A stretch of 64,000 nt of DNA from Clostridiaceae bacterium (lineage in GTDB: Bacteria; Bacillota; Clostridia; Lachnospirales; Lachnospiraceae): NCBI GenBank assembly GCA_910574345.1, contig CAJSZV010000026.1, positions 1 to 64,000 of the forward strand, written 5' to 3'. Below the pieces are notes generated by a model. That model had not been told where the DNA came from and did no database searches. It saw nothing but the letters and a program-made list of their open reading frames with translations. The number at the start of each line of letters is the position of its first letter. Positions within the stretch are counted from its first letter, which is position 1. Below, in pieces: positions 56,843 to 63,473 of the stretch. The position numbers and the translations under genes were made by a program.

Positions 56843-58330
<1,488 letters not shown>

Positions 58331-58384
58331 AGATAAGGCAACGAGAGGCTGTCGTTTAATACCGGTTTTCGGCCTCTGACACAG

Positions 58385-58455
58385 GGAAGAGACCATTCCA
58401 TAGAACTCAGGATTTTTCAAAGCTTGGATTCTTATGGAACGGTTTCTTCCTTTTT
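58385..58455 (+). terminator. Large terminator after guaB
   Basis: About 18-bp interrupted stem (GGAAGAGACC-x-TTCCATA against TATGGAA-x-GGTTTCTTCC), long loop, then TTTTT. Confidence 0.75.
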
Positions 58456-58516
58456 AGCTGCTGTCATAGGCGGAGTGGAACGAGTATAGAAAATAATAAA
58501 CTGAGATGTCCTTGAG

Positions 58517-58542
58517 AACTGCAAGAATATCTTGCAGTTTTT
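58517..58542 (+). terminator. Hairpin upstream of the defence operon
   Basis: Perfect 10-bp AACTGCAAGA/TCTTGCAGTT stem, loop ATA, run of five Ts. Insulates the operon from upstream transcription. Confidence 0.7.
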
Positions 58543-58601
58543 GAAATACCATGATAATATAATGTCAGCCTCAAAAAGTTATATACAAATTTACCTGTAA
58601 A
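58532..58601 (+). promoter_or_regulatory. Promoter and operator of the defence operon
   Basis: TTGCAG (58532-58537), 17 nt, TAATAT (58555-58560); an overlapping TATAAT lies at 58558. The palindrome TTTACCTGTAAA (58590-58601), 17 nt before the first gene, is a candidate binding site of the HTH controller. Confidence 0.5.
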
Positions 58602-58617
58602 ATGTGGGAGGTTATAT

Positions 58618-58851
58618 ATGGCTGTCAGCTATGATAAACTCTGGAAGCTGCTTATTGATAAGAAAATGAATAAGAGCCAATTGTGCGAGAAAGCAAAAAT
58701 AAGCACGAACGCAATGGCAAGACTTGGGAAAAATGAAGATGTACGAGTAGAAGTTCTTGCACGAATTTGCCTGGAACTTGGCTGCTCTATGGATGAAATA
58801 ATGGAAATACTTCCAGAGAAGAATGAAAAGGAACATACGGTATGGACATAG
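58618..58851 (+). CDS. Xre-family HTH controller protein (77 aa)
   Basis: A single Cro/C1-type HTH: YDKLWKLLIDKKMNKSQLCE, KAKISTNAMARLGKNEDVRV, LARICLELGCSMDEIMEI. Small HTH proteins of this kind often precede restriction-modification genes as controllers. Stop overlaps the endonuclease start by 10 bp. AT-rich codon use, as in the rest of the operon. Confidence 0.85.
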   Translation: MAVSYDKLWKLLIDKKMNKSQLCEKAKISTNAMARLGKNEDVRVEVLARICLELGCSMDEIMEILPEKNEKEHTVWT

Positions 58852-59570
58852 AAAAATATGTGGCAGATGATCTCTTAAATAGGTTTGAGTTTTATAACTA
58901 CGGTCATGCATTGGAGATACTCCATGATGCTTTTCCTATAGAATGGAATGAGTTACAAGAATGTTTGAGAAAATTAAAACTTACTTTGGCAGATATTAAA
59001 AAATCCGGAGGTAATGAATCTCCAATACCAAAGAAGTTTGATGATGTTCTATATCCCTATGGCTGGAGAGAAATTAGAATAAGCGGTGATTTGGTTGTAA
59101 AAAAATATCCAAGACAGACGGCACAGAGAAGAGGGCGCTTTGCAGATGAACCATATGAGGTTGAAACAATAGAAGGTTATATTGATGGACATAATATAGA
59201 TTTTTTGAAAAATAGAGTTGCCTTTGATCTTGAATGGAATAGTAAAGATCAAACATTTGACAGAGATTTATTAGCTATGAGAACCTATTTCGATTGCGGA
59301 TTGATTGATGTGGGCGTTATCGTAACGAGGGCAGAGGCACTTAATGATATTTTTAAGAAAGAAACGGATAGCAATGGTCAATTACTAATAAAGAAGTATG
59401 GGGCAAGTACCACCTGGATGGGAAAATTGCGGTATCGGCTTGATTCGCGTCGCAATGGAGGATGCCCCATTTTGGCAGTGGGGATAGGAAAGGAATGTAT
59501 TGAAGAATATGGCAGATTTAATGAGTACTATACAAAACTTAATGGAATTTACGAGCGGAAAAAAATATAA
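58842..59570 (+). CDS. BglII/BstYI-family type II restriction endonuclease
   Basis: A 242-aa PD-(D/E)XK nuclease. The core GYIDGHNIDFLKNRVAFDLE followed by WNSKDQTFDRDLLAMRTYFD and GLIDVGVIVTR matches the BglII/BstYI family, with Asp and Glu of the active site in NIDF and DLEWN. Relatives cut AGATCT or RGATCY, so a GATC-containing target is plausible but not proved. No signal peptide. Lies between its likely controller and methyltransferase; the next gene starts inside its last 24 codons. Confidence 0.83.
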   Translation: MDIEKYVADDLLNRFEFYNYGHALEILHDAFPIEWNELQECLRKLKLTLADIKKSGGNESPIPKKFDDVLYPYGWREIRISGDLVVKKYPRQTAQRRGRFADEPYEVETIEGYIDGHNIDFLKNRVAFDLEWNSKDQTFDRDLLAMRTYFDCGLIDVGVIVTRAEALNDIFKKETDSNGQLLIKKYGASTTWMGKLRYRLDSRRNGGCPILAVGIGKECIEEYGRFNEYYTKLNGIYERKKI

Positions 59571-60153
59571 TACTATCTATGCAGATCCGCCATGGCAGTT
59601 TCAGAACAGGACAGGGAAGGTTGCTCCGGAACATAAACGGTTGACTCGGTATGAGACCATGACAATTCCAGAGATTAAAGCATTGCCTATCGAGAATATA
59701 ACAGGAGAAAAAGCGCACTTATATTTATGGATTCCCAACGCATTGCTTCCGGAGGGATTAGAAGTAATGGATGCCTGGGGGTTTGAATATAAGGGAAATA
59801 TTGTGTGGGAGAAAGTGCGAAAAGACGGGGGACCTGACGGCAGAGGAGTTGGATTTTATTTTAGAAATGTTACAGAATTGATTTTGTTCGGTATTAAGAA
59901 AAAAAGCGCACCTAACAGAACCCTGCAGCCAGCACGCTCTCAGGTAAATATCATCCGGGCAATGAAGCGGGAACATAGTCGTAAGCCGGATGAAATAATT
60001 CCCATTATTGAGGCATGCAGTCAAAGTCCCAGAATTGAACTTTTTGCCAGAGGAGTTCGAGAAGGCTGGGATATGTGGGGGAATCAGGCAACTGCTGATT
60101 ATGAACCGACGTGGGAGACTTATTCTAATCATACAGTAGCACATGTTGAGTAG
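59500..60153 (+). CDS. MT-A70-family adenine methyltransferase
   Basis: A 217-aa m6A methyltransferase with the catalytic DPPW (YNTIYADPPWQFQN), HLYLWIPNALLPEGLEVMDA, and a SAM-site region KPDEIIPIIEACSQSPRIEL. The expected protective partner of the upstream endonuclease. TTG 59500 has AAAGGA at 5 nt; ATG 59509 or 59521 are alternatives. Overlaps the endonuclease gene by 71 bp, so both are made from one mRNA in different frames. Confidence 0.85.
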   Translation: MKNMADLMSTIQNLMEFTSGKKYNTIYADPPWQFQNRTGKVAPEHKRLTRYETMTIPEIKALPIENITGEKAHLYLWIPNALLPEGLEVMDAWGFEYKGNIVWEKVRKDGGPDGRGVGFYFRNVTELILFGIKKKSAPNRTLQPARSQVNIIRAMKREHSRKPDEIIPIIEACSQSPRIELFARGVREGWDMWGNQATADYEPTWETYSNHTVAHVE

Positions 60154-60197
60154 AATAAACTAAGCGATATTGGCATACAAATGATAAGGAGACAAAC

Positions 60198-60353
60198 GTG
60201 TATAAATATATTGAGAATTATAAAGGACGTAAAGATTTGATTGATTTATATGAAGATAATTCGCTATTACTTTATGCTTTGCAATTGAGATATGATATAG
60301 AAGACATTATTTCTGTTGCATCTGAAGCACTTACTGATGGTAGTGATGAATGA
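60198..60353 (+). CDS. Small acidic protein (51 aa) of the defence operon
   Basis: GTG 60198 after a good AAGGAG at 7 nt. Acidic, helical (RKDLIDLYEDNSLLLYALQL, RYDIEDIISVASEAL). Its TGA overlaps the AIPR start in an ATGA, so the two are translationally coupled. No family recognised; could be a regulator, inhibitor or partner of the AIPR protein. Confidence 0.75.
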   Translation: MYKYIENYKGRKDLIDLYEDNSLLLYALQLRYDIEDIISVASEALTDGSDE

Positions 60354-61873
60354 AAAAAGAAGCGCAGGAAACTGACTTGGCTAAAGTGAATAAGGCGAGT
60401 GATTTGAACGTTGCTGCTTCATGGATTTTTACTAGAGATATTGAAGATATCCCCAGTAGAATAAAAGATGCTGTGGGTGAACTGCAAGATGCTATTAAAG
60501 AGGGCGATATAAATACAATATATTTCTGGCACGTGCATAATATGAATGAAAAAAATAATCCAGAAGTACAGAAAGAACTAAATACCGTACAAATTGTAGC
60601 ACAAAAATTAGTTAATTCATTAGCTGGAGATAATTCTGTTAAAATTGTTGCATTAGAGGTAGGAAATAATACTATTGAAAAATGGTATAATAGTTCAAAT
60701 AAGCGTATTATGGTCGAGGATACGATTACAATTGATGGGACCGGAAATGTATTTGAAATAAGTGGGAATAAATGGCGGGCTAGTGTCACTGCAGTAAAAG
60801 GTTCTTGGATACGAAGATTGTATTTGAAGTACAAGGATGATCTTTTTTCAGGAAATCCTAGAAATTTTCTTGGAGCAGGAAAGAGAAAAAATAAAATTAA
60901 TTTAGGAATTATGGATACTGTAGAAAAGCAACCTGAAAATTTTTGGGCATACAATAATGGATTAACGGCATTAGTAAATGATTACTGTATTGATGATAAT
61001 AATATAATAAAATCAGTGACGGGAATTACTATTATAAATGGTGCACAGTCTACAGGGGCGATTGGAGCGGTAGAATCGTTAAAAGATGATTTTTTGGTGC
61101 CGATACGTTTTATTGTGTGTAGTGATCCTAAAATTATTGAGGAAATTATAAATAATAATAATAAACAAAATGAAATTCTCCCGTCTGATTTAAGAAGTAA
61201 TGATAAGCAACAAATTAGACTTAGAAATGAATTTAAAAAATATCCCCAATTATACTATAGTGGAGGAAGAAGGGATAGTACACGAGTAAGAAATAAAGAA
61301 GTATTTGATCCTTATCTGGTGGCGCAAACTTTATTAGCTTATCATGGCGATTGTGTAACTGCATATAATTCAAAAAGGATAATTTGGGATGAGGATAAAG
61401 AGTATACCAATATTTTTTCAGATCAGCTTTCAAGTGAACATATTATTTTTGTTTATTCTCTTGGAAGAGCCATTGATGAATATAAAATTAATTTAAAAAA
61501 TAAAAAAGAAGAGAGGACGGATGTTGAAGAGGCAGAGTTTACATTTTTAAGTAAGCGTGGAGCAAAAATGTTATTGATTTATGCTATTAGCAGTTGTATG
61601 GAAAGTTTAATCGGTAAAAAGATTTTGGATTCATGGAAGTTATTTTATAAAGACAATCAGGACTTTGATTCTTTAGTAAAAAAGTGGAACCAAATTATTG
61701 CTATTTTATTACCATTTCATGGAATATTAGAACCAGCATTGATTGGGGGACTAAAAAACCGGGAAATATCAAAGAATGTAGCAATGCAGCTTCGTGCTGT
61801 TGTATCGTCATTGGGAACAGTATATTCAATGCAACTTTGTGGATTTATTGAGAGCATTAATACAAACATGTAA
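60350..61873 (+). CDS. AIPR-family abortive-infection protein
   Basis: A 507-aa protein. The AIPR signature is in the middle: ENFWAYNNGLTALVNDY, then VTGITIINGAQSTGAIGA, followed by NKQNEILPSDLRSNDKQQIR. AIPR proteins are linked to abortive phage resistance and often stand beside restriction-modification genes. Biochemistry not well known. Strongly AT-rich. Coupled to the 51-aa gene; the operon ends here. Confidence 0.85.
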   Translation: MKKEAQETDLAKVNKASDLNVAASWIFTRDIEDIPSRIKDAVGELQDAIKEGDINTIYFWHVHNMNEKNNPEVQKELNTVQIVAQKLVNSLAGDNSVKIVALEVGNNTIEKWYNSSNKRIMVEDTITIDGTGNVFEISGNKWRASVTAVKGSWIRRLYLKYKDDLFSGNPRNFLGAGKRKNKINLGIMDTVEKQPENFWAYNNGLTALVNDYCIDDNNIIKSVTGITIINGAQSTGAIGAVESLKDDFLVPIRFIVCSDPKIIEEIINNNNKQNEILPSDLRSNDKQQIRLRNEFKKYPQLYYSGGRRDSTRVRNKEVFDPYLVAQTLLAYHGDCVTAYNSKRIIWDEDKEYTNIFSDQLSSEHIIFVYSLGRAIDEYKINLKNKKEERTDVEEAEFTFLSKRGAKMLLIYAISSCMESLIGKKILDSWKLFYKDNQDFDSLVKKWNQIIAILLPFHGILEPALIGGLKNREISKNVAMQLRAVVSSLGTVYSMQLCGFIESINTNM

Positions 61874-61939
61874 ATTAAAGAGGTTGGGGAAATATAATGT
61901 TTGAGTTCTGCTCAGGCCCCGATAATTATGAAGGCAAAT

Positions 61940-61978
61940 AAAGACCGGAAACAACAGTATCAGCTGTTTCTGGTCTTT
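61940..61978. terminator. Bidirectional terminator between AIPR and gerA genes
   Basis: Stem AAAGACC-x-GAAACA against TGTTTC-x-GGTCTTT with a short loop; usable from both convergent genes. Confidence 0.65.
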
Positions 61979-62060
61979 GTTATGATACAGGAATCCATTA
62001 AAGCATTCTTCTAAAGATCAATGCATAATTTATAAAGTGTATGATAATCATTGATGAAAC

Positions 62061-63473
62061 TTAAGTTTTTACTTTGTGGGGAAGCCGTCCCCGAAAGAAC
62101 CGTTTTTTCAGTTCAGACCACCGAAAAGGAATCAGCGGATAAACATAGCTTTTTCCTGCAATGGTCTTGTTAAAGACAATGGCGCAAACGGACAGAATAA
62201 CCCCTGCTGTGAACCCCCAATAATTAAACAGGGCCGTGAAAATCAGAAGGAGCATTCTCATGAATTTCAGGGCATATCCCAGTTCAAAGCTGGCTTGGGA
62301 ATAGTTGGCCACTGTAACAAAAGCCATATAGAGCATGGTCTCACTGTTGAACCATCCGGACTTTACAGAATATTCCCCAAGGACAATACCGGCAATAACA
62401 CTTAACGGCGTAGTCAGCATGCTGGGAGTATTAATGGCTGCCAGCCGGAGACCGTCAATAGCAAATTCCAGGATCATTAACTGAAAAAACAGAGGCACAT
62501 AAGGCTGTTCCGACAGTTGTATAAATTGAAGCCAGGGAGGAAGAACCTCCGGGTTTTGCATCAGCAGAAGCCAGGTGGGAGTCAGAAACAGGGTTAAAAA
62601 TGAAATGACCATACGGGAAAGCCTGAGATAGGTTCCCGTAACGGGAGGAAAATAATAGTCGTCCGCTTCCTCAATAATATCAAAAACGGATGACGGAAGA
62701 ATCATGGCTGCCGGAGAGTTATCTACAAGAATAATAATATTTCCCTCCAGGATAGAAGCCGCTGCTGTGTCCGGTCTCTCGGAAAACTTAAATTTGGGGA
62801 AAGGGTTGTACCATTTACTGGGGTAGAGACATTCCGCCAGGCTTTCCTGGTTCATAGTCAGGGCATCTACATGGATATTTTTAATGCGTTTTTTGATCAT
62901 GGATAACATCTGTTCATCTACACGGCCTTTCATATAGCAGACAGCAATATCCGTATGAGAGCTTTCCCCGGCAGACATAATCTCCATGGTCAGCTTCGGG
63001 TCTCTGATCCGGCGGCGGATGAGAGCTGTATTGAAGATCAGGGTTTCCACAAATCCGTCCCGTGATCCCCGCATAACTTTATCTTTTTCCGGTTCTGACA
63101 CGCCTCTGGCGGGGTAGGTACGGCAGTCTATGGTGAGACAGCTGGAATATCCGTCAATAAAGATACAGGTAATGCCGGTGAGAAGCTGTACGATCATGGA
63201 ATCAGAGCTGTCCACAAGCCCTACTTCCCCGTAAGGAATATACTGCTTAGAAAATCCATGGGCATCCTCAGGCATATCTTCCGGCTTCATGGACTCCCAG
63301 ATCTGAAAAATCTTCAAGAGAACTTCGTCTTTCGTGAACCCATCTATAAAATAGGCGCAGGCAGTTCTGCCGCCGATGCACAGCGTCCGGTATACCACAT
63401 CAAAGTTAGCATTGACATCCAGCAGTTTGTTCATAGACTGGATATTGTCTTGAATATGTTTGGAAAAATCCAT
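62061..63473 (-). CDS. GerA-family spore germination protein
   Basis: A 470-aa germinant-receptor A subunit. Cytosolic N-terminal half (QDNIQSMNKLLDVNANFDVV, KGRVDEQMLSMIKKRIKNIH) and a C-terminal membrane part with about five helices, containing the family motifs VDNSPAAMILPSSVFD and EADDYYFPPVTGTYLRLSR. Located in the spore inner membrane in relatives. ATG 63473 with GGAAGGAG at 8 nt; frame start at 63503 rejected. No gerB or gerC follows. Confidence 0.93.
   Translation of the reverse strand: MDFSKHIQDNIQSMNKLLDVNANFDVVYRTLCIGGRTACAYFIDGFTKDEVLLKIFQIWESMKPEDMPEDAHGFSKQYIPYGEVGLVDSSDSMIVQLLTGITCIFIDGYSSCLTIDCRTYPARGVSEPEKDKVMRGSRDGFVETLIFNTALIRRRIRDPKLTMEIMSAGESSHTDIAVCYMKGRVDEQMLSMIKKRIKNIHVDALTMNQESLAECLYPSKWYNPFPKFKFSERPDTAAASILEGNIIILVDNSPAAMILPSSVFDIIEEADDYYFPPVTGTYLRLSRMVISFLTLFLTPTWLLLMQNPEVLPPWLQFIQLSEQPYVPLFFQLMILEFAIDGLRLAAINTPSMLTTPLSVIAGIVLGEYSVKSGWFNSETMLYMAFVTVANYSQASFELGYALKFMRMLLLIFTALFNYWGFTAGVILSVCAIVFNKTIAGKSYVYPLIPFRWSELKKRFFRGRLPHKVKT

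Follow-up and report, generated by a model that had tools for sequence, protein, structure and literature searches.

A BglII-type restriction-modification operon between guaB and a gerA-type gene of a Clostridiaceae bacterium, with an AIPR gene that was likely broken by a 64-bp deletion

The stretch of DNA analyzed here, referred to as the window, comprises 64,000 nt (positions 1 to 64,000 of contig CAJSZV010000026.1, Clostridiaceae bacterium assembly GCA_910574345.1) and contains at positions 58517..61873 an operon whose last gene encodes an AIPR-type abortive infection protein. The reading that we consider likely is that a restriction-modification (R-M) operon was inserted between guaB and a gerA-type gene and that its effector gene, AIPR, was broken by a deletion of 64 bp. 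All genes of the operon lie on the forward strand. A helix-turn-helix (HTH) regulator of the HTH_26 (Cro/C1-type) family (58618..58851; 77 aa; Pfam 8.9e-17) is followed by a type II restriction endonuclease of the BglII/BstYI family (58842..59570; 242 aa; PF09195, 2.7e-43) and a DNA methyltransferase of the MT-A70 family, which is of the N6-methyladenine (m6A) type (59509..60153; 214 aa; PF05063, 4.3e-30). The AIPR gene comes last and is present in two pieces, a detached N-terminal fragment of 51 codons with a GTG start (60198..60353; residues 1-51 of approximately 578 in relatives) and a remainder of 507 codons beginning at M73 (60350..61873; PF10592, 4.8e-30, 105.7 bits at a cut-off of 25). 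PADLOC assigned the methylase frame to type II methyltransferases (2.3e-82) and the AIPR frame to AbiU (4.1e-26). Frames and Pfam families thus bear out what the original prediction described, a compact R-M operon of BglII and MT-A70 genes that ends in an AIPR gene.

The deletion becomes apparent in comparison with L051, a locus on contig CATKYJ010000008.1 of an uncultured Acetatifactor. BLASTN aligned window positions 58841-60349 with L051 4426-5936 and window positions 60350-61874 with L051 6001-7522. As these blocks skip the L051 bases between 5936 and 6001, the window lacks exactly 64 bp, and relative to L051 and other relatives the site of the loss lies at 60349..60350. The deletion shifts the reading frame and removes residues 52-72 of the L051 AIPR protein, a stretch that includes the best conserved part of the N-terminus. 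The N-terminal positions which are invariant in 24 AIPR relatives include T46, G48, D51, K53, D55, Q70 and Y72; of these, the window has lost K53, D55, Q70 and Y72 and carries E in place of D51. The remainder therefore retains the AIPR domain but has lost the conserved N-terminal motif, and the hallmark of the close clade, one frame with an N-terminal TDG..D.K.D..Q.Y segment, is missing from the window together with the 64 bp. A scan of genome contigs yielded 16 AIPR loci (L051-L066), and both parts of the protein are joined in one frame of 573-583 codons in L051-L055, L058 and L060-L063, as they are in one frame of 586 codons in L189.

These alignments also settle the nature of the 51-aa frame. 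It had been taken for a gene of its own within a set of five coupled genes, encoding an acidic protein that might act as gatekeeper of a two-layer defense system. The five frames, their order and the families HTH_26, BglII, MT-A70 and AIPR were all recovered, yet the locus consists of four genes, as the 51 residues form the N-terminus of a single-frame AIPR protein in intact relatives. The frame does have a start codon and is coupled to the next frame; even so, we give a separate gatekeeper gene next to no chance. No Pfam family was found for the frame. It matches phrog_1841 weakly (E 0.034) over profile positions 26-64, and the 507-aa frame aligns with the same profile further on, from 91 to 536. 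When the plasmid collection was searched with the 51 residues by tblastn (E<=5), no free-standing homologue outside AIPR appeared; the hits were confined to the starts of annotated AIPR genes, one in Klebsiella (a record of 5.4 Mb; E 3e-5) and one on a plasmid of Arthrobacter (E 0.2). The overlaps between the genes, given before as 10, 71 and 4 bp, were only partly confirmed. Those of 10 bp (HTH/BglII) and 4 bp (an ATGA at 60350-60353) are real, the latter being a by-product of the deletion, which joined the two AIPR frames. The overlap between BglII and MT-A70 amounts to 71 bp only with an alternative TTG start at 59500, which is possible, and to 62 bp from the ATG at 59509 (MADL), which aligns with the start of the L051 MT-A70 protein. 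A programmed frameshift joining the two AIPR parts was considered as well and is unlikely, given the missing 64 bp and a stop codon that precedes the A-run.

As the deletion takes out the conserved N-terminal motif, a working second layer is not supported in this genome, and the AIPR gene is, as judged from its sequence, probably dead. The condition of the remainder weighs against a dead gene, however. When changes were counted per branch (four outgroups for AIPR, two for BglII and MT-A70), the remainder had accumulated 64 synonymous changes on the window branch as against 28 non-synonymous ones, a ratio of non-synonymous to synonymous rates (dN/dS) of 0.11 that indicates normal constraint, next to 90 and 30 changes (0.084) on the L051 branch. 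The corresponding ratios on the window and L051 branches were 0.066 and 0.10 for BglII and 0.143 and 0.122 for MT-A70. Moreover, the remainder contains no further break, which would also fit a protein still in use or an error in the assembly. As the remainder is free of decay, the break is either recent, or harmless to the remaining part, or an artifact.

An artifact of assembly or sequencing, with the true genome carrying an intact four-gene operon and a working AIPR, appears unlikely to us. It would explain the lack of decay past the break, the genome is a draft of 106 contigs, and no repeat is seen by eye at the two breakpoints in relatives. On the other hand, a clean loss of 64 bp would be unusual for an assembly, and the AIPR gene is also broken at five others of the 20 close loci (L056, L057, L059, L066 and L076), so that breakage appears to be common in this clade, although some of these five are draft or metagenome assemblies too. 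Still less probable, in our view, is a functional split, in which ATGA coupling yields two separate proteins that work jointly, or in which the remainder acts alone. The perfect ATGA overlap and the low dN/dS of both pieces on the window branch would agree with it (for the 51-codon part 0.127, from as few as eight synonymous and four non-synonymous changes, with three and six, or 0.508, on the L051 branch). However, four invariant positions are among the 21 lost residues, and the split is absent from the other 19 loci of the clade, of which L056 and L057 are broken nearby by a one-base frameshift instead. In these two loci (L056:536-2268 and L057:5783-7521) the frameshift lies in an A-run just after M73, the place where the window deletion ends, which may be due to chance, sequencing error or a slippage-prone site. 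A broken AIPR behind an R-M operon thus remains the reading that we prefer for the window.

The association of AIPR with R-M genes was followed through 20 loci of the close clade (the window, L024, L051-L066, L076 and L189; L022, L023 and L029 are DNA-identical to L053, L060 and L066 and were not counted again). Twelve of the 20 AIPR genes are intact, six are broken, including that of the window, and two run off their contig (L064 and L065). At 15 of the 20 loci AIPR stands downstream of R-M genes that share its strand, in agreement with the general idea that the two belong together. The partners are BglII and MT-A70 in the window and in L051, and an AlwI-like endonuclease with a D12 methylase, fused in most cases, in L052, L053, L055, L061, L062, L065, L076 and L024 (for the last, only part of the endonuclease lies inside the stretch fetched). 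L057 and L058 have D12 and DpnII genes together with an N6/N4-type methylase, which is CcrM-like and below the cut-off of that model, and L060, L063 and L064 have D12 and DUF6996/6997/7226 genes, in the latter two also with an N6/N4-type methylase. The DUF6996/DUF6997/DUF7226 protein is presumed to be an endonuclease from its place in the operon, possibly an uncharacterized one, and that of L060 had no match in the PDB. No R-M gene was found beside AIPR in L054, L059, L066 and L189 in a search which covered the families known from the other loci and could thus miss other kinds, and L056 offers just 535 bp upstream of AIPR. It should be added that the calling of open reading frames (ORFs) missed the R-M genes of L062, which were recovered by tblastn, and the BglII ORFs of L163 and L019.

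In a tree of 20 AIPR rows, outgroups included, whose root is unsure owing to long outgroup branches, the two BglII-linked rows form a pair (100/99) nested in a larger group (100/98) that also holds L054 and three AlwI-linked rows. The partner labels require five changes on this tree (minimum four, shuffle mean 10.8); as partner types are clustered, swaps of partner appear to have been few. The close clade itself is rare, being found in one of 26 genomes of the genus, two of 398 in a sample of the phylum and three of 392 in a sample of the order, with the own genome included each time. Two further AIPR-domain genes are present in the own genome (L002/L077 on G000:C21 and L003/L078 on G000:C3).

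Viewed from the endonuclease side, the picture is different. L051 carries BglII, MT-A70 and an intact AIPR in the same order as the window and lacks the HTH gene, and L067 (G133) carries HTH, BglII and MT-A70 together with an AIPR of another subfamily; these two come nearest to the five-gene order for which a search had been proposed and which was not seen in the loci fetched. The L067 set suggests that the R-M core gained AIPR more than once. The AIPR of L067 (L067:5815-9099) has a D..QSK motif. A Comamonas plasmid (L018:3890-6264) has, behind its BglII/MT-A70 pair, a gene whose annotation names another abortive infection family protein. No AIPR was found in the BglII loci L068, L069, L070 and L071 (L072 is cut by the contig end), nor among the printed neighbors of BglII in the 24 IMG/VR loci where a BglII ORF had been called. 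A search of IMG/VR with the AIPR remainder alone returned no relative; with the AIPR alignment it returned 36 loci of distant relatives, whose best segments share 24-41% identity and which had, within two ORFs on either side, no R-M gene of the kinds searched, except for a CcrM-like ORF two away in L155.

It is possible, though we are inclined to doubt it, that AIPR stands behind R-M genes only because genes cluster by chance in a variable locus, with no cooperation between them, which would also be compatible with the explanation favored here. The BglII/MT-A70 pairs without AIPR and the more distant AIPRs from IMG/VR, almost all without a searched R-M gene alongside, speak for such clustering. 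Against it stand the 15 close loci with AIPR behind R-M genes of four kinds, the same R-M core with an AIPR of another subfamily in L067 and the annotated abortive infection gene behind the Comamonas pair. As far as can be told from gene neighborhoods, the coupling of R-M and AIPR is real at the level of the clade, while the BglII/MT-A70 pair itself usually goes without AIPR.

The part which the window has lost may hold the chemistry of the effector. Among 74 AIPR ORFs (all of at least 480 aa, the broken one of the window included, and possibly with some genes fetched twice) a regular expression found D..[IVCL]D..QxK in the N-terminal part of 12, QxY only in 44 and neither in 18, whereas either form is matched by 2.4% of shuffled N-terminal parts. 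A D..[IVCL]D followed by QxK, which some other AIPR proteins have in the region that the window has lost, resembles nucleases of the PD-(D/E)XK kind. An AlphaFold2 model of the intact L051 AIPR reached a mean confidence (pLDDT) of 85 and a predicted template modelling score (pTM) of 0.46. Modelled alone, the N-domain reached a pLDDT of 88 and a pTM of 0.84 and showed strands at 56-60 and 65-72, both of which fall in the stretch deleted from the window, followed by a helix. Its best PDB match was 4zqu, the entry of a CdiA toxin domain (E 6e-3, probability 0.97), and in BFVD an uncharacterized phage protein ranked first (2.3e-7) and a phage 'restriction endonuclease' second (0.018). The AIPR of L067 weakly matches Mrr_cat_2 (E 0.057, below the cut-off), and the most frequent weak Pfam match of the N-domains was a type I restriction subunit domain (five of 24, best E 0.0017). 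Several results speak against a nuclease. The clade of the window has QxY and not QxK, the N-domain model matched nothing in the PDB at 0.001, so that a nuclease fold is not significant, and no Pfam nuclease model exceeded its cut-off in any of the 24 N-domains. From motif and model we infer that the N-domain of intact relatives looks restriction-nuclease-like and may act as a nuclease. A HEPN domain at the AIPR N-terminus was considered too; motif and model strands do not suggest it. No PDB fold match reaches significance for or against such a domain, and among the matches of the full AIPR model a HEPN toxin entry comes 41st (E 1.2).

The R-M half of the operon looks intact and is, by the conservation of its residues, probably working. 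The BglII domain of the endonuclease is far above its cut-off (148 bits at 26), and D120, D129, E131-W-N133 and K135 are each shared by 97% or more of 34 aligned sequences, while the DPPW of the methylase is invariant across 29 (the window is included in both alignments, which were filtered by length, score and known duplicates). The endonuclease of the window retains them, in the segment E131-W-N133-S-K135, together with other conserved positions; by conservation they are candidate residues of active-site type. Among the four PDB matches listed for the endonuclease BstYI was the best (E 0.0049), and the other three are not nucleases by name. The methylase is adjacent, with its gene overlapping that of the endonuclease. 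Of 250 genomes in the family, ten have a BglII-family match, counting the own genome. MT-A70 adjoins BglII in 21 of 25 IMG/VR loci, in six of these upstream or on the other strand; the exceptions are L160 (contig end), L163 (no BglII ORF called), L167 and L168, and in L161 the BglII frame itself is broken. Enzymes of the BglII/BstYI family cleave AGATCT or RGATCY, and by analogy with the endonuclease family the target of the methylase probably contains GATC. The window holds 59 RGATCY and 12 AGATCT sites, both below the shuffle means, which is not diagnostic.

Taken together, the HTH regulator would probably bind a palindrome upstream of the operon and set its expression, the MT-A70 enzyme would methylate adenine in a site that, going by the endonuclease family, probably contains GATC, and the BglII-like enzyme, as known for its family, would cut unmethylated copies of this site in incoming DNA. 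The last gene would have been the AIPR effector. In intact relatives it would combine an N-domain resembling a restriction-type nuclease with the AIPR domain and probably act on nucleic acid when restriction fails or the balance of modification is upset, thereby stopping the infected cell; this idea of the trigger follows the published coupling of immunity and suicide. In the window, the 64-bp deletion splits AIPR into pieces of 51 and 507 codons and takes the putative catalytic strands with it, and for this reason only restriction and modification are expected to work here.

A bolder possibility, to which we assign little probability, is that AIPR proteins of this clade serve varied R-M operons as a common effector in last place, watching over adenine methylation at sites that contain GATC and firing a restriction-nuclease-like N-domain once this methylation fails, the window being a natural loss-of-effector mutant. 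The partners concerned would be methylases of the D12/Dam, N6/N4 and MT-A70 types and the BglII, DpnII, AlwI-like and DUF6997 endonucleases. However, PDB matches of the AlwI-like L052 endonuclease include BspD6I, whose site is GAGTC. Owing to this match, to the unassigned DUF6997 protein and to a published operon with the motif GCWGC and an AIPR gene of possibly another clade (PMC5608340), GATC as common denominator of all partners is treated as speculative, and the few partner changes on the AIPR tree lower its probability further.

That the operon is a local insertion in a variable gap follows from the genus. No other of its 26 genomes has this AIPR. Among 19 guaB regions read, gerA was reached in 12, with a gap of 37 bp between guaB and gerA in one (L109/G252) and differing genes in front of gerA in the remaining ones; for the other seven, either the contig ended or the stretch read stopped short of gerA. 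The guaB-gerA gap (L105-L123) is variable in the genus and may be a hotspot of insertion, being nearly empty in one genome. The AT-rich composition noted before for the operon was confirmed. In 500-base windows its GC content is 0.30-0.41, lowest in AIPR (about 0.30), as compared to 0.43-0.55 in guaB and 0.42-0.48 in gerA.

Upstream of the HTH gene lies the palindrome AACTGCAAGAATATCTTGCAGTT (58517..58539), which had been noted in a promoter region and is indeed present before this gene; with its core CAAGAWTATCTTG (58522-58534) it is a possible operator of the HTH regulator. L067 and L068 also have the core in front of their BglII genes; the palindrome scan did not find it upstream in L051, L069, L070 and L167, nor in the scanned upstream parts of the AlwI-type operons L052, L053, L061 and L065, which are headed by HTH genes of the same family. 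The HTH relative of L067 shares 81% identity; in L069 the gene is broken (L069:1884-2130), in L068 a C-terminal remnant is left (L068:6001-6240) with the palindrome retained, and in L051 no HTH gene was found. L069 and L167 carry the HTH gene or its ruin yet lack the core, while in L068 the core stands beside a remnant only. The decayed HTH genes of L068 and L069 suggest that the R-M pair can persist without the regulator. Terminators had been proposed at both ends of the operon. A simple scan of 58200-62200 revealed a terminator-like hairpin between operon and gerA (61948..61970, - strand) and none in the gap upstream; with three such sites found and 1.8 expected by chance, the other two lie inside guaB and the endonuclease gene. 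Promoter-like sites were at chance level (15 found, 16.5 expected).

The part of these results most worth following is the picture at the level of the clade. A single AIPR clade behind four kinds of type II R-M genes, with a motif resembling the site of restriction nucleases, offers a testable hypothesis for how AIPR acts and what it senses, and the intact BglII operon of L051 and the broken one of the window provide a natural comparison. The 51-aa frame is also a warning that small 'new genes' beside effectors can be fragments of broken effectors.

The idea of coupling AIPR to R-M is not new and is already in print. AIPR is described as commonly encoded by R-M operons (Iyer et al. 2008, PMC2292703), a coupling of immunity and suicide is proposed that names AIPR with R-M and places a HEPN domain at the N-terminus of AIPR (Makarova et al. 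2012, PMC3506569), and AIPR is mentioned in other methylase or R-M-like operons (PMC9523054, PMC5608340). No title among the matches listed from the open-licence literature concerns this AIPR clade across BglII, AlwI and DpnII operons. The operon of the window resembles the published ones in carrying AIPR inside an R-M operon, for which the idea of a suicide backup was stated in PMC2292703 and PMC3506569, and differs in that one AIPR clade spans BglII/MT-A70, AlwI-like, DpnII and DUF6997 operons and in that the AIPR of the window is broken. In place of the HEPN domain given in PMC3506569, motif and model point here rather to a restriction-nuclease-like domain, at matches below significance. 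Membership in the MZA system was ruled out, as the AIPR matches MzaE at 9e-14 with 50.9 bits, far below the NCBIfam cut-off of 1050, while to AbiU there is the AIPR-like match given above. With R-M systems of the BglII/BstYI family the operon shares the BglII domain, an adjacent methylase and conserved acidic residues, whereas its methylase is of the MT-A70 family and that of BglII itself is an N4-methylcytosine (m4C) enzyme. Closest to the window is L051, with the same order of genes and identities of 88% for BglII, 87% for MT-A70 and 89% for AIPR, which differs in its intact AIPR of 578 aa, in the missing HTH gene and in its other flanking genes.

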